Shown in pieces: positions 6,599 through 10,496 of a stretch of 64,000 bases of DNA; position 1 is the first letter of the stretch, and every line of letters begins with the position of its first letter. The DNA is from Aminobacterium colombiense DSM 12261 (GTDB lineage Bacteria > Synergistota > Synergistia > Synergistales > Aminobacteriaceae), in the NCBI RefSeq assembly GCF_000025885.1, contig NC_014011.1:62001-126000 (forward strand), in the 5' to 3' direction. Below the pieces are notes generated by a model. The model worked only from the letters and a program-made list of their open reading frames with translations, was not told where the DNA came from and made no database searches. A program made the translations under genes and the position numbers.

Positions 6599-7162
6599 AT
6601 GGATCAGGAAAAAGTATTTTGGAGAATGCTTGATGTCATTGAAGATTTTATTGTTCCCGAAACCCGTTTGGCGGTGCCCCATGGCCATAAAATTTTTGGC
6701 GCGGCCATTGTGCGTCGTTCTGACCTCTCCCTTGTAGTGGCAGAAACAAATCATGAAGGGTGGAGCCCCCTTTGGCATGGGGAAGTCTATACTATAAAAA
6801 AATTTTTCGAACTTGATGACCATCCCGATCCTAGAGAATGTATCTTTCTCTCAACACATGAACCCTGTTCCATGTGCCTTTCTTCCATTGCGTGGTCAGG
6901 GTTTCCTCAGATTTATTTTCTTTTTGGGTATGAACAAACAAGAAACGCTTTTAACATTCCCTACGATATCCAAATTTTAAATGAAGTCTTTAATTGCCCC
7001 AAGCCAAGTCGTAAAAACAAATTTTTTGAAAGTTTTTCCTTACAGGAGATGGTTTTGCAACTGAGCGAGCCTGATCTTGCAAAGGCGAGGTTAGAAAAGC
7101 TGCAACGCATATATAATGAACTGTCAGATGTATACCAGGCGAGAGAAAAAAAACGATCTTGA
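6599..7162 (+). CDS. CDA-fold nucleoside/nucleotide deaminase-like protein
   Basis: A 187-residue zinc deaminase of the cytidine/deoxycytidylate deaminase fold. The zinc and proton-shuttle motif is HGE at residues 60-62 (in LWHGEVYTIKKF), and the second zinc motif is EPCSMC at 88-93. It is longer than classical cytidine deaminases, with an extra C-terminal helical segment. The substrate is not evident; guanine or a modified base are possible. The stop is 19 bases before sdaAB, so it is probably the first gene of the serine dehydratase operon, an association that suggests nothing obvious biochemically. Confidence 0.78.
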   Translation: MDQEKVFWRMLDVIEDFIVPETRLAVPHGHKIFGAAIVRRSDLSLVVAETNHEGWSPLWHGEVYTIKKFFELDDHPDPRECIFLSTHEPCSMCLSSIAWSGFPQIYFLFGYEQTRNAFNIPYDIQILNEVFNCPKPSRKNKFFESFSLQEMVLQLSEPDLAKARLEKLQRIYNELSDVYQAREKKRS

Positions 7163-8966: not shown

Positions 8967-10496
8967 ATGAGAATGACAACGTTGCTTACCCCTACTTTAA
9001 AAAAGGAACCCGCGGGATGGCAGGATCCAGGTGCTATTCGTCTTCTTCGAGGAGGCTATGCCCTTGATCTTCACCATGGGGAGTGGAGTTTGCTTCCCTT
9101 GGGAGCATTGCTGAGGGACAATGTTGCCTGGACCTTTATCCATGCCTTTATGGACGGGGGTTTTCAGCAGCTGGAAGACCTTCTTTATAGAAAAGAAGGA
9201 ATTCAATTGCTTGCGCAGAGGGTGGTTCAAAGCTACCGGGATCTTCCTCTGCGGGTAATGGAGCTTCGGGGAGGGCGGTTGCTTCTCAGCGGAATAGAGG
9301 CTTCTTCATCGGAAGAATGTCAAAAAAATTTGCTGTATTTCATTGAAAACCTCCTTGAGAACATGGCTCTGTCCGGTGTCAAAATAGAAGATGCAACCCT
9401 GGGAAAAGAAGGAGCCTACATTGCCCTCCACGCAGAAGAAGAGTTTGCCGCATCTTCAGAAGGGGTAGAATGCCCTTCCTGCGGATGGCATGGTACTACC
9501 CATGCCCATGCAGGGGAAACCAAGCCTTTTCGAACAGAAGAGGAGTCTTCAGTGCAGGAAGTTTTCACCCCTGGAGCCGAGTCTATAGACGCCCTCTGCT
9601 CCTATCTCGAGGTTTCTTCGGAACAAACAATAAAGACCATGTTCTATATGGCCGAAGTGAATGGCGTCTTCCAGCCGGTGACAGTTCTTATCAGAGGAGA
9701 TAGGCAGATAAGCGAACGGAAGCTTCTTGTATCACTGGGGGCGACGGAAGTTCGCATTGCAGAGGAAAAAGAACTTATAGAAATCATGGGGCAAAAGCCA
9801 GGGTTCCTCGGACCTGTAGGCCTCCCTGACAAACTTCTTGTCATCGCAGATTCAAGTGTGGAAGGTTGCAAAGGTGTTGTAACAGGAGCAAATCGGCCGG
9901 AATACCACCTCACTGGAGTGACGTGGGGGCGTGATTTCAAAACGGAACGTGTTGCCGATATTGCTCTTCTTGAAGAAGGGATGGATTGCCCTCATTGCGG
10001 CTCAGCCTTGAGGAAGTATCTGTGGAATGGCGTAGCGGCAGTATGGGGAGAACCCGAAGACGCGCTAGAGACCCTTTACCAGGATCAGAGCGGCTCGTCT
10101 CAGAAGTGCGCGCTATGGAAGGGCTGGATCCATCTTGATAGCATTATAACGGCCCTGGCGAGACAAAAAACATATCCCTTGGGATTGGCGCCTTTTGATG
10201 TGGATATTATAGTGCCATCTATAAAAGACGAAACTGCCATGGAATTGGCGACGAACCTCTATCACGAAATGGTCCATCAGGGAGTCGTTGCTCTTTTCGA
10301 TGACAGAAATGAGAGGGCAGGCGCTAAATTTGCGGATTTTGAGCTTTTTGGCATTCCAGCAAAAGTTGTTGTAGGGAGAAAAGCGGCTGAGGGAATCGTG
10401 GAAGTACAGTACGGTGAAGAAGTAAAGGAAATGCAGGCATGCCATGTAACGTGTTTCCTCTCCTCTTTGCTCAATGACGATGACACGCAGCTGTGA
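8967..10496 (+). CDS. Prolyl-tRNA synthetase-like protein lacking the catalytic motifs
   Basis: A 509-residue protein with the outline of bacterial ProRS. The N-terminus (LLTPTLKKEP, then LLPLG) matches ProRS. So does SYRDLPL at 89-95, but the following motif 2 block (the KFRDE...R.REF.M segment) is gone. Around residues 382-400, where motif 3 (GIGVSR) should be, the sequence is KGWIHLDSIITALARQ. The inserted INS editing domain (about 205-330) looks intact, with TIKTMFY and VTGANRPEYHL. The anticodon-binding domain (about 405-509), with FDDRNERAGAKFADFELFGIP, is also kept. It cannot be a normal synthetase; trans-editing of mischarged tRNA-Pro or a regulatory role is inferred. Ribosome-binding site GAGGAGG. 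AGAGGTC-type coupling to neighbours is absent, but the unit continues into a parvulin gene. Confidence 0.85.
   Translation: MRMTTLLTPTLKKEPAGWQDPGAIRLLRGGYALDLHHGEWSLLPLGALLRDNVAWTFIHAFMDGGFQQLEDLLYRKEGIQLLAQRVVQSYRDLPLRVMELRGGRLLLSGIEASSSEECQKNLLYFIENLLENMALSGVKIEDATLGKEGAYIALHAEEEFAASSEGVECPSCGWHGTTHAHAGETKPFRTEEESSVQEVFTPGAESIDALCSYLEVSSEQTIKTMFYMAEVNGVFQPVTVLIRGDRQISERKLLVSLGATEVRIAEEKELIEIMGQKPGFLGPVGLPDKLLVIADSSVEGCKGVVTGANRPEYHLTGVTWGRDFKTERVADIALLEEGMDCPHCGSALRKYLWNGVAAVWGEPEDALETLYQDQSGSSQKCALWKGWIHLDSIITALARQKTYPLGLAPFDVDIIVPSIKDETAMELATNLYHEMVHQGVVALFDDRNERAGAKFADFELFGIPAKVVVGRKAAEGIVEVQYGEEVKEMQACHVTCFLSSLLNDDDTQL

Follow-up and report, generated by a model that had tools for sequence, protein, structure and literature searches.

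Prolyl-tRNA synthetases (ProRS) occasionally attach alanine to tRNA-Pro. To our knowledge, INS-superfamily proteins that edit in trans consist of a single domain. In E. coli ProRS, a bacterial type II enzyme, the INS editing domain does not select tRNAs by itself but relies on the anticodon-binding domain (ABD) to read G35 and G36, and the K279A mutant is editing defective; how anticodon recognition reaches the INS editing site is stated to be unknown (PMC3973320). The trans-editing factor ProXp-ala reads the acceptor stem instead (PMC3973320).

We analyzed a 64,000-nucleotide stretch of the genome of Aminobacterium colombiense DSM 12261 (the window), which encodes a protein that shares its domain order, INS catalytic residues, and ABD signature with bacterial type II ProRS (E. 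coli; Enterococcus faecalis, PDB 2j3l, which it matches over its whole length with Z = 35.6). It also shares a four-cysteine ribbon with the intact type II ProRS of other Synergistota. However, motifs 2 and 3 are lost and motif 1 lacks its end, so that by sequence it is no synthetase. Like ProXp-ala (Caulobacter crescentus, 5vxb), the window protein is predicted to act in trans on Ala-tRNA-Pro and to offset a ProRS that lacks INS, but ProXp-ala consists of one domain of about 165 amino acids, whereas the window protein is an entire former synthetase, ABD included, and its sequence is not close to that of ProXp-ala. YbaK and ProXp-x (for which structure 2cx5 was used; PMC11295145) have the same INS fold and catalytic lysine, but they are single-domain proteins with cysteine and alpha-aminobutyrate as substrates. 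ThrRS-ed of some archaea (see also the AlaX proteins) is a free-standing editor with an ABD that occurs beside a ThrRS without an editing domain (PMC11295145, PMC7373986). It differs in having an unrelated, DTD-like editing domain, in acting on tRNA-Thr, and in that its partner is the other half of a split enzyme; the partner synthetase of the window protein is of a different evolutionary type. Finally, Streptomyces has a ProRS paralogue, ProRSx, whose role has changed (PMC9437257) but which still charges tRNA.

Domains and motifs of the window protein

The open reading frame given in the initial annotation was confirmed exactly, as were its retained INS and ABD, which are supported by the alignment and by Pfam (Table 1). 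No Pfam family matched the synthetase core of this protein. Two NCBIfam models for ProRS did match, NF006625 at 217 bits and TIGR00409 at 152 bits, which is far under their curated cut-offs of 558 and 306.7 bits. The best matches in the PDB (phmmer) were type II ProRS, mainly over residues 187 to 503. No ProXp-ala chain was among these matches, so the window protein is not ProXp-ala, and its editing domain is INS rather than DTD-like, so it is not of the ThrRS-ed type. Instead, a PF04073 score over the cut-off, the catalytic lysine, and the GxxxP loop place the editing domain in the INS superfamily, and the domain order, the location of INS between the positions of motifs 2 and 3, the ABD, and the overall fold are those of a type II ProRS.

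Table 1. Features of the degenerate ProRS and of related loci. Positions are in the window unless a genome (G), contig (C), or locus (L) is named; G000 is the genome of A. colombiense.
Feature	Position	Strand	Evidence
Degenerate type II ProRS, 509 aa, predicted trans-editing factor	8967..10496	+	Profile searches, alignment, predicted structure
N-terminal segment, residues 1-73, aligned to type II ProRS start up to motif 1	8967..9185	+	Aligned with intact type II ProRS of Synergistota
Site of the motif 2 deletion, residues 95-100 (LRVMEL), directly after SYRDLPL	9249..9266	+	Alignment; motif patterns absent
Four-Cys ribbon flanking INS, first pair, C169 and C172	9471..9482	+	Alignment; conserved in 64/65 and 62/65
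Aminoacyl-tRNA editing domain (INS), residues 201-323, with I207, L210, K223, GxxxP 279-283, N309, H314	9567..9935	+	PF04073 (tRNA_edit), 83.5 bits, cut-off 25.5; residue conservation
Four-Cys ribbon, second pair, C341 and C344	9987..9998	+	Alignment, conservation
Former motif 3, residues 384-392, WKGWIHLDS for GCYGIGVGR; motif 3 Arg is S392	10116..10142	+	Alignment, motif patterns
ABD, residues 412-481, ProRS signature DDRNERAGAKF	10200..10409	+	PF03129 (HGTP_anticodon), 45.6 bits
187-aa ORF, deaminase-like HGE...PCSMC pattern	6599-7162		No NCBIfam match at 1e-5
Type I ProRS, complete	G000:C1:293402-294823		551 bits, cut-off 437
162-aa INS protein	L001:1408-1896 (G000:C1, around 574795-575145)		PF04073; best PDB relative 2cx5
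ABD-eroded degenerate ProRS with reductase genes	L099:4279-9524; L180:7028-9069; L175 (G020); L047, L049, L057, L065

The charging site is destroyed. Alignment with intact type II ProRS from sister families (L048, L051, L053, L059) bears out the proposal that the protein is ProRS-like with motifs 2 and 3 lost: SYRDLPL is present at residues 89 to 95, the motif 2 block of the intact enzymes (IQTKFRDEIRPRFGV) is missing, with the gap between residues 99 and 100, and motif 3, thought to have been replaced by unrelated residues somewhere in 382 to 400, has indeed been replaced (Table 1). The damage goes beyond this description, as the terminal proline of motif 1 and about 35 residues after it are also missing, at residue 73/74. 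We found no displaced copy of the catalytic motifs elsewhere in the chain. Neither a class II motif 2 (FRDE and its arginine) nor a motif 3 of the form GxxGIGxxR is present, and both motifs are absent from all 65 aligned sequences of the clade to which the protein belongs (the clade form occurs in 69 genomes); a loss this uniform is due neither to chance nor to sequencing error. Thus, judging from its sequence, the window protein is a former bacterial type II ProRS by descent that has lost its charging site, and the label "proline--tRNA ligase" would misannotate such genes. It is very improbable that the protein still charges tRNA through an unrecognized active site or carries out another ATP-dependent reaction: a class II fold is still predicted, but the arginines of motifs 2 and 3 and the proline of motif 1 are gone in the clade, and the genome encodes a complete ProRS (see below).

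In contrast to the charging site, the editing site is invariant. L210, K223, K252, G279, P283, G307, N309, H314, R322, and D323 are identical in all 65 sequences, and the ribbon cysteines are conserved in 60 to 64 of them. We take K223, H314, I207, and L210 to be the equivalents of K279, H369, I263, and L266 of E. coli ProRS.

The ABD is more variable. The signature DDRxERAGxKF is intact in the window's genus, in most members of family f10, and in one of two copies in an Acetomicrobium MAG (G119). It is eroded in families f2, f4, f5, and f6 and in the second G119 copy. In family f8, the ABD is wholly absent, and forms of 386 to 425 amino acids retain the editing domain (L046, L050, L062, L067, L076, L082, and others). 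Because the editing residues do not vary and the ABD does, the editing site is the constant part of these proteins. Within the degenerate clade, the window protein represents the least reduced stage.

The proposed overlay on bacterial ProRS also worked out. An AlphaFold2 model of the window protein (pLDDT 92, pTM 0.87, from an alignment of 29 sequences) superposes best on E. faecalis ProRS (498 residues, 3.1 A, TM 0.86 to 0.87 by query), although intact ProRS sequences in the input alignment aid the prediction and may bias it toward the ProRS fold.

Distribution and conservation in the Synergistota

Homologues were found in 74 of the 185 genomes of the phylum, a group that ferments amino acids. 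Five of these are intact type II enzymes of 575 to 580 amino acids with both motifs present, from the sister families f11 and f12, which lie outside the order Synergistales. These are the only intact type II ProRS in the phylum; searches of f11 and f12 found no type I ProRS. The remaining 69 matches are the degenerate form or fragments of it, in 69 of the 180 genomes of the order. A type I ProRS was found in 61 of these 69 genomes but not in the other 8; some of the 8 are incomplete, but G024 and G171 are 99% and 97% complete.

The initial annotation called for a phylogeny to see whether degenerate proteins group as a conserved clade, and they do: in a quick tree of the INS region (59 rows, no bootstrap), the degenerate sequences form a single clade (SH-aLRT 99). 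The degenerate ProRS is under purifying selection and is not a relic. All close pairs with estimable dS have dN/dS of 0.04 to 0.41, and the reading frame is open in every genome listed. With these values, a single clade, and a high-confidence fold, a decaying pseudogene is hardly credible, despite the large deletions in the former active site.

We also scanned genome contigs with two patterns, which gave named records from Synergistaceae, Thermovirga, and Acetomicrobium. Among the best 80 loci, there were no degenerate forms outside the Synergistota: the loci from other phyla keep motif 2, except for L160, a locus truncated by the end of its contig. Our motif 3 pattern was too strict, so its failure to match beta-proteobacterial loci is not evidence of loss; these presumably carry the variant GTYGIGVSR, which the pattern disallows. 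A scan of genome contigs with the single window protein found nothing. We did not find a description of such a degenerate ProRS in the literature that we searched, which left most subscription journals out of scope.

The charging enzyme and other INS-type proteins

The genome of A. colombiense (1.98 Mb in one contig, 99.9% complete) does encode a second, complete ProRS, as had been anticipated, but it is of the archaeal type (type I), and no complete type II ProRS was found. There is no PF04073 match inside the type I enzyme, so it cannot edit by means of INS. Only two proteins in this genome contain PF04073 domains: the window protein and a protein of 162 amino acids (Table 1) that appears to be ProXp-x-like. 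With just these two matches, there is no YbaK-type protein. ProXp-ala proteins do exist in the Synergistota (PDB relative, 5vxb), but a search with such a protein finds nothing in A. colombiense, and ProXp-ala was not found in the other two genomes of the genus (G030 and G031) either.

Across the 180 genomes of the order, 7 have both the degenerate ProRS and ProXp-ala, 62 have the degenerate ProRS only, 49 have ProXp-ala only, and 62 have neither (Fisher's exact test, P = 1e-6 by genome and P = 0.007 by genus, uncorrected for phylogeny). In family f1, the degenerate form is confined to the window's genus, which is without ProXp-ala. Within genus g27, the two seem to have been swapped: one genome (G107) has ProXp-ala, and six others have the degenerate form. 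This complementary distribution supports a common task, which would be the clearing of Ala-tRNA-Pro. Neither factor is strictly required, as at these thresholds 7 genomes have both and 62 have neither. The genomes with neither include genus g10 of family f1, among others, and 15 of the 185 genomes have no PF04073 protein at all (at 1e-5), which suggests that proofreading of proline codons has been lost there.

Overall, we consider it probable that the window protein is a former type II ProRS that was displaced by a type I enzyme and retained as a trans-editing factor for Ala-tRNA-Pro. A full-length, anticodon-reading trans-editing factor had been proposed, and this is the reading that the complete ProRS elsewhere, the conserved clade, the invariant pocket, and the structural overlay best support. 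Synergistales encode a type I ProRS, which in A. colombiense has no editing domain, and this enzyme would sometimes attach alanine to tRNA-Pro. The retained ABD and its signature suggest that the window protein would bind the anticodon of tRNA-Pro (G35 and G36); its INS, with the invariant pocket and catalytic residues, would then hydrolyze Ala-tRNA-Pro in trans. If INS editing depends on anticodon reading by the ABD, as in E. coli, this would explain why the two domains were retained together. The proposed anticodon reading thus fits the window protein, which keeps its ABD, but it is not fixed across the clade: since several families have an eroded ABD and f8 has none, guidance by the ABD is not the mechanism of the whole family. 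The distribution suggests that the type I enzyme displaced an ancestral type II enzyme that was kept for editing only, and that in other families, the degenerate ProRS then shed its ABD or was replaced by ProXp-ala.

Gene neighborhood and biological context

The initial annotation took the placement of the gene behind L-serine dehydratase genes as a clue to function. However, these genes flank the degenerate ProRS in just three genomes, all from the window's own genus (g1; G000, G030, and G031), and we rejected a functional link. Upstream of them is an ORF of 187 amino acids (Table 1) that is conserved within the genus. Across the order, there is no conserved operon partner and no support for a translation partner. 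In f10, genes that resemble dnaK, dnaJ, and clpB, identified by reading the sequence only, are nearby. Within the window, no T-box or other RNA element was matched by Rfam, and a promoter scan gave no more than expected by chance.

The initial annotation also raised the alternative of a tRNA-Pro sensor, which is less likely than an editor. A sensor or scaffold, such as one that regulates the type I ProRS or dimerizes with it and uses INS for binding only, would have precedents, as noncatalytic subunits with a class II synthetase fold exist; our model also matches PolG2, an accessory subunit (of mitochondrial polymerase gamma). But this role is improbable given that the editing residues are invariant, that f8 has lost the anticodon-reading part, which a sensor would require, and that there is no regulatory RNA or conserved partner gene nearby.

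In members of families f4, f6, and f7, the ABD-eroded forms adjoin genes for glycine/sarcosine reductase (selenoprotein A, GrdX, and selenoprotein B), in two gene orders. In L099 (Acetomicrobium), for instance, the components of selenoprotein B, selenoprotein A, GrdX, and the degenerate ProRS follow each other on one strand. G119, the MAG with two copies (L020 and L085), has the full ABD signature in one, and the copy without it adjoins reductase genes. Serine dehydratase and glycine/sarcosine reductase are both settings of amino acid fermentation, which may be a context for high concentrations of free small amino acids.

These neighbors bear on whether the protein is a trans-editing deacylase with another main substrate, such as Cys-, alpha-aminobutyrate-, or Ser-tRNA-Pro, or another tRNA in the branches without an ABD. 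The association of an ABD-eroded branch with reductase genes in three families would fit such a role, as would the erosion or loss of the ABD itself, and without a YbaK-type protein, Cys-tRNA-Pro would otherwise go uncleared in A. colombiense. Still, we think that a different substrate is unlikely: I207 and L210 (I263 and L266 in E. coli) together with K223 fit the pattern of an alanine-specific INS, and the distribution is complementary to that of ProXp-ala.

Returning to a trans-editing factor for Ala-tRNA-Pro, a broader scenario is conceivable, though we hold it only tentatively: a whole synthetase, displaced by an enzyme of another type for the same amino acid, became a trans-editor, and the stages (intact, a dead charging site with anticodon reading, an eroded ABD, and no ABD) are found within one phylum. 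The ABD-eroded branch beside glycine reductase may have moved to a substrate linked to fermentation. If the window protein does edit in trans, it would be an INS trans-editor that derives from a complete synthetase, and its relatives would form an evolutionary series from synthetase to proofreader. The link between the anticodon and INS would also become testable in natural proteins in which the ABD is present, eroded, or absent, with no interfering charging activity.
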